Translations under genes and position numbers: made by a program
The notes under the pieces: generated by a model
What the model was told of the DNA's origin: nothing
Database searches by the model: none
Seen by the model: the letters and a program-made list of their open reading frames with translations, nothing else
In this document: positions 2,680 through 64,000 of the stretch, in pieces
Layout of the letters: each line of letters begins with the position of its first letter
Position numbering within the stretch: position 1 is the first letter of the stretch
Assembly: GCA_963402885.1 (NCBI GenBank)
Contig: OY727095.1
Location: 35,377,847 to 35,441,846 of the forward strand
Direction of reading: 5' to 3'
DNA length: 64,000 bases
DNA from: Antedon bifida
Taxonomy: Eukaryota; Echinodermata; Crinoidea; Comatulida; Antedonidae

Positions 2680-3790
2680 GATCCTAATTAAAAGTTGATT
2701 CGCAGCGTTCTATAGAGGACCGCGGTTAGAGACATAGAGTTCAAAGGCAGCAGTGCTTTAGTATAGGCGAGTGCGTTGGAAAATATTTTGTCACCATCGA
2801 TACGTATCCATCGTATTCAATAATCCCTTCTGAGGTATGGAATCTTATACGACATGCCATGTGTGCCAACATGCTTTTTACCAATTTGGTCTACTACATG
2901 TTGCAATCCTCTCCTCCGTAATGCATCACTTCACAGGTGGCTCTCTATAAATTGATTCTGTGAATTCGACAATAAATTTGTTTTAGTTAACATTCGGATA
3001 TGGTTCTGAAAGCTTATTCCATGAGATTCGTTATAAAGCTGATAAACGATGCGAACTACCATCAATAAAATATTAAATTACGTCTATAAATGATGCATTG
3101 TTGAAAAACGTACGGTACTACGTGATTGACGATCAACCAGCAACAATCAATAGCTGATTAACCAGCTTCGAAAAAACAACGCAACACAGTATAAGTCGCG
3201 TTGAACGATAGGTGTGCATATTATCAACAAATATTTTTAAAGCAAGGTAATTCGTAGGCCTATAACGTATAGTAGTCAACTTTAGGCACACAGTATGCAA
3301 AATGGTCTTTAGACTAGTTCCGTGGACATAGGGTAACAAAGTTAAGTATGGCGGTGATTTAAAAGGAATGATACCCGCTCCATTGGGCGGTTTTCTAAAT
3401 GTAGTTTTAATACTAGTTTAATTCCGGTAATTTTGATATGTATGGATGCGTGCAATAGCAAAACTGTGTATTCAACAATGATGTCTTATTCTTTCTCCCA
3501 CTTAAATTGTGGCATTAGCCACAGCTCTGAAGACATACGATAGAAATTAGCTTTATTATTGTTAATTCAGACAAATAATTGGAATCTTGGATTGATATTA
3601 TGATCAAACCAGGTAATTATAATTATGTTGATATAAAGTTTGCGGTACACCACGTGTGTTAGTTCTGAAAAGAACTGTTGAGTTTCTCGACGTTTCGATC
3701 AATATACTTTGATCGTCCTCAGGAGCCATGCAAACCTTCAAACAATAAATTATAATTATGTTTCAAATTTACACTTCTTGTGTTTCTTTC
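2680..3790. other. Intergenic; probable repeat edge at 3650-3735
   Basis: No gene seen. Bases 3650-3735 hold the phrase GTTTCTCGACGTTTCGATCA...TTTGATCGTCCTCAGGAG, which contains a short inverted repeat (GATCAA/TTTGATC). From memory, similar phrases occur in Penelope-like element ends, but I cannot confirm it. An acceptor-like TTTCTTTCAG ends at 3792, just before the GPCR start, suggesting a 5' UTR intron. Confidence 0.35.
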
Positions 3791-3823
3791 AGAAGAGCTT
3801 ATCTTGTACTTTACCGATATATC

Positions 3824-4768
3824 ATGAATGATTCAAGTCAATATCAGTCTTATAACTCCAGTTATGTGTCGTACTCATACTGGAGTTGGGAGGAGGACAC
3901 GAATTATTTTGTTGATGGTTTATATTTGCTGATAATCATACTTGGAATTATTGCTTTCTTAGGGAGTGCATTTACTCTAATTGTTGCCTTAACTACGAAG
4001 AAGATCCGAAAGAAACGTAGCAATTACCTGATAATGAACCTAGGAGTTCAAGATAGTGTTATGGGTTTCACAGTCGCAACCCTCTACTTGATTATTTATA
4101 CATCAAACTACAGCGATATTAACGTGTTTTTGTTAACATTTTGTTCACTAACTTACACGGGTCTTTTAGTATCAACATTACTGGCAATTTTAATGATTGC
4201 CATTGAACGATGTTTCGCCATAATTGCACCATTTCACCATCGCATATACGTTACAAAAACCACCTTATCAATCGCAATCTTTTTAGACTGGGCCGTATTT
4301 GGGGGAATGTACATATTCCTCAATTACTATAAAGGCTCTCGGTTAACGGTGACAATATTGAATTTATGCATTATATTTATAGATGTAGTTCTATACTTGG
4401 TAATATTTGTGTATGTTAAATGTCATTCAGCAAAAATTCAACGTTTTTCTAGCATATCTCTTAAAAAGAAGACAAAACAGGATATCAAAATGATCACTAC
4501 ATTCGCTCTATTAGTTGGAATCCTAGTAGTGTGTTGTATCCCATTTTGGGTAGTTGATGTTTTTGTGACGATTAACCCGTCAAAAACAGTAAACGACGCA
4601 TTTCTAATAGCAACAGTGTTTATTCCACTGAATTCGGCGGTGAATATATTTGTGTATTGGTGGCGTATACCGGAGTTCAGAGGGGCCTACAAGCGGATAT
4701 TATGCGTCAGAAAAGAAATCGCACGGACAAACACGAATGTGTACGTTGTGAGCTCCACTGTATTATAG
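3824..4768 (+). CDS. Class A (rhodopsin-like) GPCR, single coding exon
   Basis: This is a 314-residue seven-helix receptor. I start it at ATG 3824 (MNDSSQ) because an acceptor-like TTTCTTTCAG ends at 3792 and the residues before it look non-receptor-like; an in-frame ATG at 3758 is possible. The N-terminus has NDSS and NSS glycosylation sites. TM2 has MNLGVQD. TM3 ends IERCFAI in place of DRY. TM4 has its Trp. TM6 has CCIPFW. TM7 has NSAVNIFVYWW in place of NPxxY, followed by RIPEFRGAYKRIL. The TM1 Asn is replaced (GSAFTL). This variant set recalls the large orphan GPCR expansions of echinoderms. The ligand is unknown. The last ~100 bases are tandemly duplicated downstream. Confidence 0.85.
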   Translation: MNDSSQYQSYNSSYVSYSYWSWEEDTNYFVDGLYLLIIILGIIAFLGSAFTLIVALTTKKIRKKRSNYLIMNLGVQDSVMGFTVATLYLIIYTSNYSDINVFLLTFCSLTYTGLLVSTLLAILMIAIERCFAIIAPFHHRIYVTKTTLSIAIFLDWAVFGGMYIFLNYYKGSRLTVTILNLCIIFIDVVLYLVIFVYVKCHSAKIQRFSSISLKKKTKQDIKMITTFALLVGILVVCCIPFWVVDVFVTINPSKTVNDAFLIATVFIPLNSAVNIFVYWWRIPEFRGAYKRILCVRKEIARTNTNVYVVSSTVL

Positions 4769-4990
4769 TCGTATTATTTATTTATTTTCCGTCATATTCA
4801 ACAGCGGTAAACATATTGCGTAGGTGGTGTATACCGGAGTTCAGAGGGGCCTACAAGCGGATATTATGCGTCAGAAAAGAAATCGCACGGACGAACACGA
4901 ATGTGTACGTTGTGAGCTCCACTGTATTGTAGTCGTATTATTTATTTATTTTCCGTCACATCCAACAGCGGGAAACGCGCCACTAGAATG
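4667..4990 (+). repeat. 164-bp tandem duplication of the GPCR 3' end
   Basis: The ATACCGGAGTTCAGAGGGGC segment at 4667 recurs at 4831, an offset of 164 bp. The repeat covers the receptor C-terminal tail, its stop and the next ~50 bases. The second copy keeps the FRGAYKRIL...VVSSTVL frame but has no helices before it, so it is a non-coding duplicate. Confidence 0.9.
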
Positions 4991-11665: not shown

Positions 11666-14600
11666 TTAATGTGCATTAGGTGAGAAATTAGCGTCAAATG
11701 AATCGTTACAATCCAAAATACACCCATCTTCCATCAGTATGACAGCAATCCGAGCAATATTTCTTGCATCCGATATTCCTCTATGAGGGCGTCCTTCAAA
11801 AGTAAGTTCATGTGCAGTCAGCATATTTTTTAGACTCATTCGAGGTAAATGATAAAAATTGCTCATAGCTTTACAAATGTTCACCCATTTTCTGCAAAAT
11901 TTAGGAAATGGAACTTGACTGAGATGGCATTGCACGTTCAGAAACAGATTCATATCCCATGGCCTGAAAAAATAAAAGGTTATATATATTCAGGAATTTG
12001 TTACAGTATAGATGCATTAAAACGGTAAATTATTTTTGTGCTTTTTACATTTTCTGTTCAGTGCTTAGATGTGCCCTGCATTTTTATGCTTTAGAAATTG
12101 ACCATTATTATTATTTCCATTTTAATGTAGCATTACATACCCATCACATGCTACTGCAAATGTATAGTAGGTTCCTAGTCCCTTAGAGTCCATCCATTTA
12201 CAAACTTTTTTCCATACATCTGGAAACAACTCTGCACTATCAACCATACTCTAAAATTCATACAAATTAATTGATGATTGTTAGATGATGACAATTAGAT
12301 GTTTTTGCCCTACTCTGACGTAATTTGTACTTTATACTAAGTACATTTGAGAATACTTGCGAAAAAATTCGCAAGTAGTTCTCGGGTGGGACTCGAACCC
12401 ACGACCTCCAGATCACTAGCCTGGCGTTCATACCTTCAGACCACCGAGAAAATTTACTTAATATAAAGTACAAATTACGTCAGAGTAGGGCAAAAACATC
12501 TAATTACTCAACTCCCTGACGCAAAAACTACAATTACAATCCTAGATGATGATAAATACAATAATGTGAATGATAGGTGGTTAGTGTGGAGAGCTGAGGC
12601 CACCACATACCTACCTGTGTAATACTTGTGAGATCTGTACAAAATTGATAGGTGGTTGTGGAGAGCTGAGGCCACCACATACCTACCTGTGTAATACTTG
12701 TGAGATCTGTACAAAACTGATAGGTGGTTGTGCAGAGCTGAGGCCACCACATACCTACCTGTGTAATACTTGTGAGATCTGTACAAAATTGATAGGTGGT
12801 TGTGGAGAGCTGAGGCCACCACATACCTACCTGTGTAATACTTGTGAGATCTGTACAAAACTGATAGGTGGTTGTGCAGAGCTGAGGCCACCACATACCT
12901 ACCTGTGTAATACTTGTGAGATCTGTACAAAATTGATAGGTGGTTCTGGAGAGCTGAGGCCACCACATACCTACCTGTGTAATACTTGTGAGATCTGTAC
13001 AAAATTGATAGGTGGTTCTGGAGAGCTGAGGCCACCACATACCTACCTGTGTAATACTTGTGAGATCTGTACAAAATTGATAGGTGGTTGTGCAGAGCTG
13101 AGGCCACCACATACCTACCTGTGTAATACTTGTGAGATCTGTACAAAATTGATAGGTGGTTGTGGAGAGCTGAGGCCACCACATACCTACCTGTGTAATA
13201 CTTGTGAGATCTGTACAAAATTGATAGGTGGTTCTGAAGAGCTGAGGCCACCACATACCTACCTGTGTAATACTTGTGAGATCTGTACAAAATTTGGTTA
13301 ATTTTGGATTAAATGTAGGACGGCAAAATGCTTGGAATTCATCTTCCTGAAAAATCAAATATCATTGAAAAATAATTATGAGTGTACATACCAAAAATGA
13401 AATTGTTTTTGTCTATCGTATATAGTTATTTAGAAATAAAAATTATTAGACTTTTTTTTATGTTGATAGTAGTAATAGTATTCGCTTACGAGCGACACCA
13501 GCTAACGTTTTTTTTTTTGTTCAGCTTAATGTAAGATACAGTATAATAATAATAATACTGTATGTTTGAAATGTTTTTATCTCTTTACCAATATTAAGTG
13601 GTATTGCTGTTTAGCACCTAGACTATTGAGAGACCTGAACTACATCAAGCAATTACATACAAATGGATAGTGTTTACAATGAGTTAATGCAACATTGTTC
13701 AATAGTTTTGTTTTTGCAAGACCCTTTTACACAAAACATAAACATTATATATACACAATTTAGTGTTGCTCATTGAGTGATAAATAGTATTTTTAATTCG
13801 TTTTTACTTTTTAATTTTGAGAATTGGTTCAAATCTACTAGATTGGACTTAGTTCCAATGTACATCATTCACTACTAATTTACACATGAACTTACAACTT
13901 CAAGAGTGCTTGTGTTAATCAACACAATGGGAAACTCAATTATTTCAGGAACAAAATCTGGTGGTTCTGGTTCTTCGCATGTTGCTTCATAATCTATCAC
14001 TAGTAAATAGTCAAATTGTTGATGCATCGATTGGAAGCCTGTCTCTGCTGCAAGCAGTCGTTGTTTATAGTAAGATTTCAGTCTAGACTTTAATATATCA
14101 ATTCTCCCTCTAAAGAAAGATAAAAATACCATTTGTTTGCAAAAAATCTTGCTGAAAAAAATCTAGAATGATATATGACAATGCACACAAATATTAAAGG
14201 GGAGTTTAAGGGAAAAGGTTAAGGTTAATTTGAAGGGGGACAAATTGAAGGTTACAGTAGAAAGGGGTAAAAATTTATTTTGGGGTGGAAAAGTTTGTCG
14301 GAGTACCCACTGACCTACACAACTTACCGAGTGTTCAGCTTTAAAGTACCAAGCTTTGCTTTAACTTCACTAGAATTCAGTTTGTTTATTTCACCATTTT
14401 TACGAGAAATTTGTTTGAATACCGGATGACTTTTATCTATCTATAAATAAAACAGACAATTGTATACTACTAGGTGTAGGTAGGAAGCAGGTGAAATATG
14501 AATATTAGTATTACAGTACAGTACTATTATTATTAATAAATGAGATATTAAATATGTCACATGTGCATGATTTTTTGTTGACTTGAATGTTTTTGTCTCT

Positions 14601-14902
14601 TCTTCTCGTTATGATACTGTATATACTGTCATCATCAGTACCTTATTAATATTATTAAATCTACTGGTCACGCCGCTGGATTGATCTTTGGAAGTAAACT
14701 TAGGTCTAGACTGTTTTCTATCTCCATGAACCCCACAACAATCATCCAAGCAGAGGTGTTTTAGTTCTTTATCAAGTGTGGCTAGGGCTAGACCTTGGCT
14801 GGAGGAGTCCCTCACAGTTGGACATTTTTGCGGACAAGCTGTAGGCCTAGGCCTAGTAGACGTATGCCTAGTACCGGCATCCACCACTGACGACGACGTC
14901 AT
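11666..14902 (-). CDS. ERI1: ERI1, 3'-5' exoribonuclease (SAP + DEDDh)
   Basis: Six exons join in phase: 14902-14642, 14440-14328, 14109-13896, 13346-13263, 12250-12141 and 11963-11666, giving 359 residues (human ERI1 is 349). Exons 2-3 encode a SAP-type segment (NGEINKLNSSEVKAKL, then LKSYYKQRL). Exon 3 holds the exonuclease motif IDYEATCEE (D164, E166). Exon 5 ends in ACD (D260) and exon 6 has GRPHRGISDARNIARI with the later His and Asp. ERI1 trims histone mRNA 3' stem-loops, matures 5.8S rRNA and degrades siRNAs. I start at MTSSSVV, because a TTGTTTCAAG acceptor-like site precedes it; an upstream in-frame ATG would add a hydrophobic N-terminus. A 72-bp array multiplies the exon 4 donor. 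Reading is highly confident; only the start is doubtful. Confidence 0.93.
12293..12505. mobile_element. 213-bp inverted-repeat element enclosing a tRNA-like sequence
   Basis: Arms of about 43 bp at 12293-12335 and 12462-12505 are inverted copies of each other (AATTAGATGTTTTTGCCC... against ...GGGCAAAAACATCTAATT). Between them lies a 72-nt tRNA-like cloverleaf on the minus strand. The element sits in ERI1 intron 4. No clear target duplication beyond the arms is visible. Confidence 0.75.
12379..12450 (-). tRNA. tRNA-Thr(AGT)-like cloverleaf, probably element-borne
   Basis: The 72 nt fold fully: a 7-bp acceptor (TTCTCGG/CCGAGAA), D stem GTCT/GAAC with one mismatch, a 5-bp anticodon stem CCAGG/TCTGG with loop CTAGTGA (anticodon AGT, T33 present), and T arm GTGGG/CCCAC around TTCGAGT. 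A T6 run about 14 nt downstream could end Pol III transcription. The D-loop/A-box is degenerate and the acceptor starts with T, unusual for a real tRNA-Thr. Because it sits inside an inverted-repeat element I treat it as a mobile tRNA-like sequence, not a housekeeping gene. Confidence 0.5.
12569..13290. repeat. 72-bp x 10 array spanning the ERI1 exon 4 / intron 4 border
   Basis: Ten units of 72 bp. On the minus strand each unit has about 30 nt of the exon 4 end, the junction ACACAG|GTAGGTATG and about 42 nt of the intron start. The authentic border is the rightmost (exon end 13263). Nine further copies place an identical donor at 13191, 13119, 13047, 12975, 12903, 12831, 12759, 12687 and 12615. 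Because 72 is divisible by three and the unit lacks stops in the ERI1 frame, that frame stays open to 12534. Confidence 0.97.
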
Positions 14903-15031
14903 TCTTGAAACAATAAACAACCCAAACAGAAACACAACTGTTAATACAACATAAAGCAGAATGATTTGCATAGTATAAATGAACACGTCATTATTGTAAA
15001 TATAGGCAATGAATCGCTGCTCTCTGCCTTG

Positions 15032-17314
15032 GCACTTGCTGCTGCTGCTGCTTCTCTCTCCTCCTCCTTTTGTGTTAATCTCTCCTGGCTCTCTTCCGCC
15101 CTCTAGAAAACAAAGAATCGATCGAATATCTAGAATGAGCAAACCTGCTTTATACCGTACCTCCATGGTAAATCACGTTAAATTCTATTTTGATGTTAGT
15201 TTACTGCCGAATAGACAGTCAACTACCGGGAGTCTACGGGTTGTGTTTTTACGAATAATGATAGTGTATACTAATTAACATTTCAATGTTCTAAGTAGAA
15301 AAGATAAATATTAATTAAATTTGACATTGTAGTCTTTCAAGTTATATCATAAATCATTACTTGAATTACTGGGCGTTGATTAGTACACGACAAAATGGAA
15401 AAGAATATTCCTGCTGGGTAACGCATGGTTGATTTTGTTAAACAAATTTAGCATGTTTGTAAAATATTTTATTAAATATTTTCTATGAAATGTTAGTTGC
15501 CTTATATTATTTCGATGGGATACTCTCTCCACCCCCACTCCCCGGCCGTGAATTTTGCCACATTTTGTGGATGCGCTCCCATGGAGGTATAATACCTCAA
15601 TGCGCTACCGATTTAATTATTTATTTCTCACAATACAATACACATAACATTTTTATACCTCCATGCAATACAAAACTAGTTTTTTATTTAATGGAAAAAG
15701 CAAAGTTATTTTTGTTATTTATATTTTAATTTAAAAAAAAGAACAACAAATTGAGATCAGATGGCTAGCTACTAAAGGCATAAATGGTGCTCCATAGAAG
15801 TAGAGAATGCTCGATCGTCGAAATGACGCTCTGAATATACCTCAAGTTTCGGGGTAGGTGGTGTTTTTTTATCAACAGTCCCCTCTATCTATTATCGAGA
15901 GTTTAGGAGTGCAGTGTGTGAGTCACAAGAGTGGTGGCTATGTAAGGGGAATCCCCTTTCCCTTGAGAAAAAAAATAAGAAAATTATGACCGCAGCCCAG
16001 ATGGTCATACAATGGCATACATACAATATACAATGTATAAGCCTTTTTGTTTATTTTAATGCAGATGACCACACATATACAGTACATAAAAATTCAGTTA
16101 TCTTTGTATTCTGGGAGAAAATGTAGAAACCGGGAGACCAGTCGAATAGAATTACTGGAGTGTTTGTATGTTTTGGCACTTGCTGCTGCTGCTGCTTCTC
16201 TCCTCCTCCTTTTGTGTTAATCTCTCCTGGCTCTCTTCCGCCCTCTAGAAAACAAAGAATCGATCGAATATCTAGAATGAGCAAACCTGCTTTATACCGT
16301 ACCTCCATGGTAAATCACGTTAAATTCTATTTTGATGTTAGTTTACTGCCGAATAGACAGTCAACTACCGGGAGTCTACGGGTTGTGTTTTTACGAATAA
16401 TGATAGTGTATACTAATTAACATTTCAATGTTCTAAGTAGAAAAGATAAATATTAATTAAATTTGACATTGTAGTCTTTCAAGTTATATCATAAATCATT
16501 ACTTGAATTACTGGGCGTTGATTAGTACACGACAAAATGGAAAAGAATATTCCTGCTGGGTAACGCATGGTTGATTTTGTTAAACAAATTTAGCATGTTT
16601 GTAAAATATTTTATTAAATATTTTCTATGAAATGTTAGTTGCCTTATATTATTTCGATGGGATACTCTCTCCACCCCCACTCCCCGGCCGTGAATTTTGC
16701 CACATTTTGTGGATGCGCTCCCATGGAGGTATAATACCTCAATGCGCTACCGATTTAATTATTTATTTCTCACAATACAATACACATAACATTTTTATAC
16801 CTCCATGCAATACAAAACTACTTTTTTATTTAATGGAAAAAGCAAAGTTATTTTTGTTATTTATATTTTAATTTAAAAAAAAGAACAACAAATTGAGATC
16901 AGATGGCTAGCTACTAAAGGCATAAATGGTGCTCCATAGAAGTAGAGAATGCTCGATCGTCAAAATGACGCTCTGAATATACCTCAAGTTTCGGGGTAGG
17001 TGGTGTTTTTTTATCAACAGTCCCCTCTATCTATTATCGAGAGTTTAGGAGTGCAGTGTGTGAGTCACAAGAGTGGTGGCTATGTAAGGGGAATCCCCTT
17101 TCCCTTGAGAAAAAAAATAAGAAAATTATGACCGCAGCCCAGATGGTCATACAATGGCATACATACAATATATAATGTATAAGCCTTTTTGTTTATTTTA
17201 ATGCAGATGACCACACATATACAGTACATAAAAATTCAGTTATCTTTGTATTCTGGGAGAAAATGTAGAAACCGGGAGACCAGTCGAATAGAATTACTGG
17301 AGTGTTTGTATGTT
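15032..17314. repeat. 1142-bp direct tandem duplication, two copies
   Basis: Copy 1 is about 15032-16173 and copy 2 about 16174-17314. Both start GGCACTTGCTGCTGCTGCTG and end GAGTGTTTGTATGTTT, and they are nearly identical, so the event is recent. The block lies directly upstream of ERI1 exon 1. Each copy holds a terminus of the foldback transposon family (15775-15842 and 16918-16984: GGCATAAATGGTGCTCC...GAATATACCTC). Within it the minus-strand peptide MEVRYKAGLLILD and the plus-strand MLVALYYFDGIL appear twice, but neither has family features, so I do not call genes. Confidence 0.95.
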
Positions 17315-22501: not shown

Positions 22502-24222
22502 TTAGTCTTTATGTATGAGTTTTAGCTTAAAAGACAATTGTGTAATTGCATCAGTAGCTTGAGAATCAATATTCACAAGTCTAATTTCTTTCACATGTTC
22601 AAATTTATCGTCATCTACAAAACTGTTGATGGAATCAATTAATGCTTTAGCACATTCCATCTTTTGTCCACCAAATATACCAGAACTGATCAAAGGAATT
22701 GCAATAGACTTTGCTTTGAGCTTTTCATCTGCATAAGAAAGACAATTGAAGAATGTTTTCTTTAACTGCGACTGAAACTGATCATTTCTGCCCTGTATTG
22801 GTCCGACAGCATGTATCACAAACTTTGCATCCAGTTTATAACCTTTAGTATGTAATACTTCTGATACTCCTAATGTACGTCCTCGTTCTTGTAGTCTTTC
22901 TTCTCCTTCAATATCAATTTCTGGACCAGCTTTTACAGCAATGGCTCTTGCAACACCTCCCCCATGCATAAGTCTGCCATTAGCTGCATTCACGATAACA
23001 TCAACAGTTTCAAGGGTAATGTTAGCTTTTTTTATAATCACATTGATACCACGTTTCATTTCCAAATTTTTGTCTTGCTCCTCACTTTTGGAACCTGTAG
23101 GTCCTTGGATAGGTGCTTGGATTTCCTTGTCACCGCTGGCCAGTTCACTGTTCTCTTCAGGTTGATTGTTGGGTGGGATTGCACATGTATTTGGCAATGA
23201 AGTTTCAGCTATAGGTGCTTGGATTTCATTGTCACCGCTGGCCGGTTCACTGTTCTCTTCAGGTTGATTGTTGGGTGGGATTGCGCATGTATTTGGCAAT
23301 GAAGTTTCAGCTATAGGTGCTTGGATTTCATTGTCACCGCTGGCCGGTTCACTGTTCTCTTCAGGTTGATTGTGATCAGGTGAGACCGGACTTATACTTG
23401 AAGCATCTATAGTTTTTGAATCACTATTCTTTCCACCATCTGACATTTTATTTTGTATGTGTTTCCATACAGTTATTGTTAGTACCAACCCTAATGCGCC
23501 TGTAACAACAATATTTTTATATTCTGCAAGATAAAAACACATAACAGTATATTCAAAATGACATTTGTTTTGGTTGCAGGACTAAATTTTGCATGCAGGG
23601 GGTAGTTTCTGAATTAAATTAATTTAATAATTACAAGTTATTTTTCTCCTGATCTTTCTATTAATTAATAATTAGGCCTAGGCCTAATGACATTTATAAA
23701 TTGTGTGTAAAACGATCAAAATTTGACTAGCTTGGCCCAAAAGATTTACTAGCATAATATAAGGCCAGGCCTGGGGACTAGATAGGCTAGAGGCTAAGGG
23801 GCCTAGCTAGTATAATTTTATTAGTAGGCGTAATAGTTAATTAGCAGGCTGGTATTATTAATTTTAGTAAGGTAGCACGTTTTAGGCCTAGGCCTAGCTA
23901 GTTATGTCTATCTAGGCCTAGCCTAACTAGCTAGCCTAGTACTAGGCCTAGTAGGCTAGGCATAATAGGTTTACTCTAGGCCTAGCCTAGCCTAGGCCCG
24001 GGCCTAGCTAGGCCTAGGCCTATCTCCTTATCTTCTCTAGCCTATCTATAGATAAGAATTTACAATAGTCCTACTACTATTAGGCCTACGCCCCTATATA
24101 ACACAATTGGCGCCATACAATTATCAATTATGATTGAGTTAGAGGGTAAAACTAAACTATTAGTATTTAATTTTACCTTTAAACCATTCTGACCACCACG
24201 TAATATTTAAACTATTCAGCAT
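22502..24222 (-). CDS. Membrane-anchored macro-domain protein (ADP-ribose binder)
   Basis: Two exons: 24222-24177 (MLNSLNITWWSEWFK) and 23523-22502, joined in phase 1, for 355 residues. Exon 2 opens with a hydrophobic helix (IVVTGALGLVLTITV, about residues 19-35). A linker follows with a 33-residue unit (NQPEENSEPASGDNEIQAPI...) repeated about 2.6 times. A macro domain fills about residues 165-352, with VDVIVNAANGRLMHGGGVA, KFVIHAVGPI and AIPLISSGIFGG, the adenine and phosphate loops of ADP-ribose binders. Such domains bind or remove ADP-ribose. The Asn of NAAN and the GGGVA loop are intact. A helix N-terminal to a macro domain suggests anchoring at a membrane, perhaps mitochondrial outer or ER (inference). 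Confidence 0.88.
23130..23385. repeat. 99-bp in-frame coding repeat, about 2.6 copies
   Basis: The unit encodes NQPEENSEPASGDNEIQAPI followed by AETSLPNTCAIPP. The copies are nearly identical at DNA level; the last diverges (ELASGDKE) before the macro domain. Confidence 0.92.
23670..24035. repeat. GGCCTAGG-rich patch in intron 1
   Basis: The densest patch of AGGCCTAGGCCTAGC-type words in the window, including CCTAGGCCCGGGCCTAGC around 23990. It lies in the first intron of the macro-domain gene, starting about 140 bp from the exon 1 donor. Confidence 0.8.
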
Positions 24223-30474: not shown

Positions 30475-36613
<6,139 letters not shown>

Positions 36614-61899: not shown

Positions 61900-64000
61900 G
61901 GGTTAGGGGTTAGGGTTAGGGGTTAGGGGTTAAGGGTTAAGGGTTAAGGGTTAGGGGTTAAGGGTTAGGGGTTAGGGGTTAGGGTTAGGGTTAGGGTTAG
62001 GGTTAGGGTTAGGGTTAGGGTTAGGGTTAGGGTTAGGGTTAGGGTTAGGGTTAGGGTTAGGGTTAGGGTTAGGGTTAGGGTTAGGGTTAGGGTTAGGGTT
62101 AGGGTTAGGGTTAGGGTTAGGGTTAGGGTTAGGGTTAGGGTTAGGGTTAGGGTTAGGGTTAGGGTTAGGGTTAGGGTTAGGGTTAGGGTTAGGGTTAGGG
62201 TTAGGGTTAGGGTTAGGGTTAGGGTTAGGGTTAGGGTTAGGGTTAGGGTTAGGGTTAGGGTTAGGGTTAGGGTTAGGGTTAGGGTTAGGGTTAGGGTTAG
62301 GGTTAGGGTTAGGGTTAGGGTTAGGGTTAGGGTTAGGGTTAGGGTTAGGGTTAGGGTTAGGGTTAGGGTTAGGGTTAGGGTTAGGGTTAGGGTTAGGGTT
62401 AGGGTTAGGGTTAGGGTTAGGGTTAGGGTTAGGGTTAGGGTTAGGGTTAGGGTTAGGGTTAGGGTTAGGGTTAGGGTTAGGGTTAGGGTTAGGGTTAGGG
62501 TTAGGGTTAGGGTTAGGGTTAGGGTTAGGGTTAGGGTTAGGGTTAGGGTTAGGGTTAGGGTTAGGGTTAGGGTTAGGGTTAGGGTTAGGGTTAGGGTTAG
62601 GGTTAGGGTTAGGGTTAGGGTTAGGGTTAGGGTTAGGGTTAGGGTTAGGGTTAGGGTTAGGGTTAGGGTTAGGGTTAGGGTTAGGGTTAGGGTTAGGGTT
62701 AGGGTTAGGGTTAGGGTTAGGGTTAGGGTTAGGGTTAGGGTTAGGGTTAGGGTTAGGGTTAGGGTTAGGGTTAGGGTTAGGGTTAGGGTTAGGGTTAGGG
62801 TTAGGGTTAGGGTTAGGGTTAGGGTTAGGGTTAGGGTTAGGGTTAGGGTTAGGGTTAGGGTTAGGGTTAGGGTTAGGGTTAGGGTTAGGGTTAGGGTTAG
62901 GGTTAGGGTTAGGGTTAGGGTTAGGGTTAGGGTTAGGGTTAGGGTTAGGGTTAGGGTTAGGGTTAGGGTTAGGGTTAGGGTTAGGGTTAGGGTTAGGGTT
63001 AGGGTTAGGGTTAGGGTTAGGGTTAGGGTTAGGGTTAGGGTTAGGGTTAGGGTTAGGGTTAGGGTTAGGGTTAGGGTTAGGGTTAGGGTTAGGGTTAGGG
63101 TTAGGGTTAGGGTTAGGGTTAGGGTTAGGGTTAGGGTTAGGGTTAGGGTTAGGGTTAGGGTTAGGGTTAGGGTTAGGGTTAGGGTTAGGGTTAGGGTTAG
63201 GGTTAGGGTTAGGGTTAGGGTTAGGGTTAGGGTTAGGGTTAGGGTTAGGGTTAGGGTTAGGGTTAGGGTTAGGGTTAGGGTTAGGGTTAGGGTTAGGGTT
63301 AGGGTTAGGGTTAGGGTTAGGGTTAGGGTTAGGGTTAGGGTTAGGGTTAGGGTTAGGGTTAGGGTTAGGGTTAGGGTTAGGGTTAGGGTTAGGGTTAGGG
63401 TTAGGGTTAGGGTTAGGGTTAGGGTTAGGGTTAGGGTTAGGGTTAGGGTTAGGGTTAGGGTTAGGGTTAGGGTTAGGGTTAGGGTTAGGGTTAGGGTTAG
63501 GGTTAGGGTTAGGGTTAGGGTTAGGGTTAGGGTTAGGGTTAGGGTTAGGGTTAGGGTTAGGGTTAGGGTTAGGGTTAGGGTTAGGGTTAGGGTTAGGGTT
63601 AGGGTTAGGGTTAGGGTTAGGGTTAGGGTTAGGGTTAGGGTTAGGGTTAGGGTTAGGGTTAGGGTTAGGGTTAGGGTTAGGGTTAGGGTTAGGGTTAGGG
63701 TTAGGGTTAGGGTTAGGGTTAGGGTAGGGTTAGGGTTAGGGTTAGGGTTAGGGTTAGGGTTAGGGTTAGGGTTAGGGTTAGGGTTAGGGTTAGGGTTAGG
63801 GTTAGGGTTAGGGTTAGGGTTAGGGTTAGGGTTAGGGTTAGGGTTAGGGGTTAGGGTTAGGGTTAGGGTTAGGGTTAGGGTTAGGGTTAGGGTTAGGTTA
63901 GGGTTAGGGTTAGGGTTAGGGTTAGGGTTAGGGTTAGGGTTAGGGTTAGGGTTAGGGTTAGGGTTAGGGTTAGGGTTAGGTTAGGGTTAGGGTTAGACTT
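61900..64000. repeat. Telomeric (TTAGGG)n array
   Basis: About 2.1 kb. The first ~80 bp mix TTAGGGG and TTAAGGG variants. Then about 1.7 kb is uninterrupted TTAGGG to about 63720. A few single-base slips follow (near 63725, 63848, 63895 and 63978). The last six bases (AGACTT) leave the pattern. The G-rich strand runs 5'-3' rightward, as at a right chromosome end. Confidence 0.97.

Follow-up and report, generated by a model that had tools for sequence, protein, structure and literature searches.

When an exon ends in ten evenly spaced copies of its own 5' splice site, which copy does the spliceosome use? The question is raised by a gene for the exonuclease ERI1 in a 64,000-nucleotide stretch of the genome of the crinoid Antedon bifida (contig OY727095.1, positions 35,377,847 to 35,441,846; hereafter the window), where a 72-bp minisatellite crosses the border of exon 4 and intron 4. 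ERI1 trims histone mRNA, 5.8S rRNA and small RNAs. Ten identical, regularly spaced and in-frame donors are a natural test of how the spliceosome chooses among equal 5' splice sites. The test is a clean one, because almost only position differs among the donors and nonsense-mediated decay (NMD) does not blur the result. We suggest, with a probability of about 0.63, that the first donor dominates with slight leakage to the next ones, and that the array is nearly neutral.

A minisatellite repeats the exon 4 donor of ERI1

The array lies on the minus strand, where the fourth coding exon of an ERI1 gene model with six exons ends (coordinates in Table 1). Tandem Repeats Finder (TRF), run over the window, reported it as a single array with a period of 72, 10.0 copies and 97% matches. 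Each 72-nt unit joins 32 nt from the exon 4 end to 40 nt from intron 4, close to the division into about 30 and 42 nt proposed in an earlier reading of the DNA made without database searches (the sequence-only reading). The donor, ACACAG/GTAGGTATG (the slash marks the splice border), is identical in 10 of 10 units, and on that feature the array belongs to the class of minisatellites that span a donor. The minus strand of the whole window holds the 15-mer ACACAGGTAGGTATG ten times and the plus strand not once, which together with the TRF copy number bears out the ten donor copies first read from the sequence. The donors follow each other at a constant 72 nt, with last exon bases at 13263, 13191 and so on to 12615. 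Units 1-9 vary at 3 of 72 columns (2, 58 and 61), and unit 10 has, by eye, three additional bases close to its end. One of the variable columns is synonymous (CAA/CAG) and two are residue-changing; three columns are too few to give evidence of selection.

The gene model runs from 14902 to 11666, has GT/AG at its exon borders and encodes a product of 359 aa. The exon 4 start (13346) and the acceptor of exon 5 (12250) named in the sequence-only reading both fit it. The start codon at 14902 was chosen, and the N-terminus is uncertain because more upstream Met codons in the same frame occur in the open reading frame (ORF) of exon 1 (14609-15172). The alignment to human ERI1, also called 3'hExo (PDB 4l8r, 1zbu), covers residues 89-352, with an E-value of 3.6e-88 for 4l8r and without an insert at the point of the array. 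Eight distinct PDB sequences were matched, under the names ERI1 (or 3'-5' exoribonuclease 1), ERI2, ERI3 and Cell death-related nuclease 4. The product belongs to the exonuclease domain family RNase_T (Pfam PF00929; E 2e-25, 90.7 bits against a cut-off of 24). The residues of the DEDDh catalytic set of ERI1 are all present in the alignment to the human protein (D164, E166, D264, H321 and D326). The alignment to 4l8r begins at residue 89, presumably where the SAP region lies, and Pfam gave no SAP match at E 1e-3. Judged by these similarities, the locus is an animal-type ERI1 gene.

Exon 4 ends in FCTDLTSITQ, compared with FCISLTGITQ in human ERI1, and the array follows residue Q224. Whichever start codon is used, this point lies between the ExoI motif (D164/E166) and ExoII (D264). 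An insertion between the first acidic motif and D260 had been proposed; the placement between the two motifs holds, and the second landmark depends on the numbering. With the start at 14902, the alignment to human ERI1 makes the D of WDMN, D264, the acidic residue of ExoII, while counting on the protein makes D260 the D of CDG, although the earlier numbering may have begun at a different start codon.

The frame stays open through all ten copies

Joined to exon 5, each of the ten donors keeps the reading frame open, as the sequence-only reading had anticipated, and each translated product has one stop, at its end. The prediction of that reading that donor n would add (n-1) x 24 residues was matched by product lengths of 359 + 24(n-1) aa for n = 1-10 (359, 383 and so on to 575 aa), with a maximum insert of 216 residues. 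In principle, the gene could thus make ten protein lengths. Without any donor used, the exon 4 frame ends at a stop within intron 4.

An array-long open frame is cheap, because a unit that is divisible by three and free of stops once stays stop-free at any copy number. Two of three minus-strand frames and one of three plus-strand frames of the periodic unit are open, and we rejected the open frame as proof of coding because frames unrelated to that of ERI1 are open as well. When the exon part of the unit was left in place and the intron part replaced, the ERI1 frame stayed open through the latter for 33% of 4000 pieces drawn at random from the plus strand of the window and set behind GTAGGT, for 66% of full shuffles and for 90% of shuffles that preserved GTAGGT. 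TRF gave 34 rows with a period of at least 20, of which 25 were kept and nine dropped by hand for overlap with kept rows (periods 51, 152, 203, 254, 29, 97, 165, 68 and 38). The period is divisible by three in 10 of the 25 kept rows, the ERI1 array included, and, counted by hand, in 12 of all 34. Elsewhere in the window, a 33-bp array of 51.8 copies (33739-35451) has long open stretches in several frames on both strands, a local illustration that open array frames are cheap.

The peptide encoded by the repeat was also considered as a domain. AlphaFold2 (AF2), run without an alignment, gave the exon 4 repeat frame a repeating all-strand pattern (best mean predicted local distance difference test score, pLDDT, 72.5; five models 50.5-72.5), for which the label beta-solenoid-like comes from the secondary-structure line alone. 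A control frame, read from the plus strand of this array, likewise gave a repeating all-strand pattern (66.2; five models 39.6-66.2), and AF2 is reported to give such patterns for perfect repeats (PMC11795689; here and below, citations stand for the excerpts available from each paper). Because the opposite-strand control was modelled alike, we rejected the repeat peptide as a folded domain. Pfam matches to the repeat frame were XET_C (35.9 bits, above the cut-off of 31.3) and DUF6330 and Mx_ML, both under their cut-offs. No single stretch passes alone for any of the three, and we take them as repeated weak chance matches.

Choice among the ten donors

The array probably arose when a tandem duplication straddled the border of exon 4 and intron 4 and then grew into a ten-copy minisatellite, its expansion taking place in a repeat-rich stretch beside a telomere-like tract and the authentic donor being carried in every copy. 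Arrays with a period of at least 20 (24 after merging, with that of ERI1 counted) make up 13% of the 61.9 kb that precede that tract, so it is not surprising that one crosses a splice border. Splicing from donor 1 (13263) to the acceptor at 12250 would yield most of the mRNA and with it the ordinary 359-aa nuclease, while a small fraction would use donors 2-3 and gain 24 or 48 residues midway through the nuclease domain. These leaked long forms are probably misfolded. The array would then be nearly neutral, with no selection needed for its open frame.

Predominant use of donor 1 with slight leakage is expected by analogy with two human genes. In ABCA7, the donor of the next repeat unit is used in 2 +/- 1% of transcripts, independent of array length (PMC5954066). 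IFI6 (also G1P3 or 6-16) has three mRNAs in which two downstream repeat units serve as donors, and its 130-aa form predominates (PMC4526556). The use of next copies in both genes, as far as the excerpts report it, argues against a fully silent intronic minisatellite with donor 1 as the sole donor used, which we consider unlikely even though donor 1 yields a normal ERI1 that matches the human protein without an insert here.

Modelled pairing with U1 is consistent with a strong donor 1. The exon 4 donor pairs with 11 of 11 nt of the U1 5' end at -13.7 kcal/mol, where the consensus reaches -14.0 and the other four ERI1 donors range from -5.4 to -9.3; donor 1 is rated strong because the modelled pairing spans all 11 nt. 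A modelled hairpin spans every donor, and isolated 45-nt folds are weakest at donor 1 (-11.8 compared with -14.3 to -18.0), which would favour that donor. Its mean unpaired probability is 0.24-0.25, that of the other donors 0.13-0.23.

Several points weigh against the predominance of donor 1. Its modelled opening energy is the lowest of the ten with flanks of 60 and 150 nt and the second highest with 100 nt. Compared with shuffles, units 1, 2, 3, 4 and 7 gave z = 0.76, -1.41, 0.11, 0.11 and -1.31, a stability not clearly above that of the shuffles. An RNA hairpin may hide the later donors, the apparent advantage of donor 1 varying with the length folded. Identical donors often lead to preference for the intron-proximal site in vitro. 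Spliced from donor 10, intron 4 would be 364 nt long, a size between the extremes of the other four ERI1 introns (177, 201, 218 and 549 nt), compared with 1012 nt from donor 1. Human exons with alternative donors include both proximal-major and distal-major classes (PMC2423196). Moreover, the 2% found for ABCA7 is a lower bound, because its next-donor product is out of frame and a target of NMD, and such transcripts rise when translation is blocked with cycloheximide (PMC5954066). The long ERI1 products are in frame and would therefore escape NMD, so leakage could exceed that of ABCA7.

These points bear on a true splice-site ladder, in which many donors are appreciably used, array length sets the isoforms, and the long forms are functional or affect dose. 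Such a ladder would draw on ten identical donors that are near-perfect for U1, ten open products that would escape NMD, and a donor 10 intron of ordinary size for this gene. Nevertheless, later donors are little used in the measured precedents, as far as the excerpts report (with the caveat of NMD), the insert would interrupt the conserved nuclease stretch LTGITQ/DQVD, the open frame is near chance expectation, and the AF2 repeat model, alike in the opposite-strand control, lends no support. We therefore regard the ladder as unlikely. It is distinctly unlikely that several of the ten equal donors are drawn on such that ERI1 forms step by 24 residues within the nuclease domain and array length tunes the active share.

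Two further outcomes concern how intron 4 and its surroundings are processed. Since AG/GT is juxtaposed at 10 of 10 sites (CAG/GTAGGT), each site could act as an acceptor and then as a donor in recursive (ratchet) splicing, with 72-nt steps removed and the same mRNA made as from donor 1. This seems extremely unlikely, as a hand count gives 10 pyrimidines among the 20 bases that precede CAG, short of a polypyrimidine tract, and 72 nt is very short for an intron. Alternatively, any effect of array length may fall on exon 5, whose skipping would shift the frame (110 nt) and lower the dose of ERI1 rather than lengthen the protein. ABCA7 provides the analogy: skipping of the exon after the array increases with array length, and use of the next donor does not (PMC5954066). 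We consider this very unlikely for ERI1, where the 724-bp array is at the short end of the range described for ABCA7 (298-10678 bp). Leakage from a predominant donor 1 thus remains our preferred reading.

Genomic neighbourhood

Table 1. Features of the ERI1 locus, in window coordinates
Feature	Position	Strand	Basis
ERI1 exon 1, from the selected ATG	14642..14902	-	Gene model
ERI1 exon 2, where the alignment to PDB 4l8r begins	14328..14440	-	Gene model and alignment
ERI1 exon 3, with the ExoI motif D164/E166	13896..14109	-	Gene model and alignment
ERI1 exon 4 via donor 1, 84 nt, EDEFQAFCRPTFNPKLTKFCTDLTSITQ	13263..13346	-	Gene model; human ERI1 alignment
ERI1 exon 5, 110 nt, a length not divisible by three	12141..12250	-	Gene model
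ERI1 exon 6, with D264, H321, D326 and the stop codon	11666..11963	-	Gene model and alignment
72-bp minisatellite, ten copies head to tail, donor CAG/GTAGGTATG in each copy	12571..13294	-	TRF and sequence reading
648 nt added to exon 4 if donor 10 is used; 216 residues, open	12615..13262	-	Gene model
Stop-to-stop frame of exon 4 and ten copies, 275 aa	12534..13361	-	ORF list and sequence
56-nt inverted repeats (96%) around a tRNA-Thr gene, in ERI1 intron 4 between array and exon 5	12293..12505	-	

The inverted repeats in intron 4 bound a 213-bp element that resembles a miniature inverted-repeat transposable element and encloses a tRNA-Thr(AGT) gene on the ERI1 strand (Rfam, 46.7 bits, and ARAGORN). 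A 23-mer from the repeat arm did not recur in the window when up to 3 mismatches were allowed, and a search for DNA relatives by an exact 23-base scan of viral contigs gave 0 matches. Without this element and nine units of the array, intron 4 would measure 151 nt, near the introns of 177, 201 and 218 nt.

The window has a GC content of 34% and ends on the right in a tract of the TTAGGG type. This tract (61900-63996) contains about 348 copies of the hexamer GGGTTA, and the window appears to reach the end of a chromosome. ERI1 would therefore be within about 50 kb of the telomere.

Other duplications and repeats were observed in the window. The region upstream of ERI1 exon 1 (15280-16420) seems tandemly duplicated, with the copies offset by about 1.14 kb: ORF 15463-15729 is near-identical to ORF 16605-16871, and the minus-strand ORFs at 15172 and 16314 have near-identical starts. 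A 102-bp repeat of 2.6 copies (23109-23373) is probably coding and in frame within a minus-strand ORF (22502-23581) that reads as macrodomain-like. Another repeat, of 164 bp (4659-4976; 1.9 copies, 96%), duplicates the 3'-terminal part of an ORF (3749-4768) that reads as a G-protein-coupled receptor.

Comparison with known donor-spanning repeats

This kind of array is already known in the human genes ABCA7, CBS and IFI6, and the ERI1 array is a further example. It adds an in-frame case to a class that we found described for few human genes. No ERI1 case was among the literature matches listed for such repeats, a weak test of absence from print. A published tandem duplication across an intron-exon border also supplies extra splice sites; the excerpt describes a single duplication that creates an intron, compared with the ten copies in ERI1.

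Two recorded repeats in CBS were compared. The 31-bp variable number tandem repeat (VNTR) c.1444_1467+7(16_21) is polymorphic in length, with 16-21 copies (PMC2630376), and lies at exon 13-intron 13 (PMC1395315). Judged by its name, its unit covers an exon end and an intron start (24 nt and 7 nt), as in ERI1, but at 31 bp it is not a multiple of three, in contrast to the 72-bp ERI1 unit. CBS 844ins68 was dropped as evidence on donor choice: its junction is that of intron 7 and exon 8 and the cited work concerns 3' splice sites, though PMC2630376 speaks of donors.

The repeat units of IFI6 act as donors, as those of ERI1 possibly do. The unit, described by Turri, Cuin and Porter in 1995, is reportedly 12 bp long and adds 4 residues per step, and the 130-aa form is said to be the product of donor 1. 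The difference lies in the step, which in ERI1 would be 24 residues and would fall within the catalytic domain.

ABCA7 likewise has a tandem repeat that carries an exon's own donor. The first two bases of the repeat in its intron 18 VNTR form the donor of exon 18, and the length of the array differs between people (PMC5954066). It differs from the ERI1 array in its 25-bp unit, in the loss of frame when one unit is retained, and in its size of about 12-427 copies. The ERI1 array is a possible case of a repeat that sets the dose of an RNA-processing enzyme. If the ladder did work, inherited array length would tune the share of active ERI1, and its in-frame long forms would be spared the NMD by which the corresponding products of ABCA7 are hidden.
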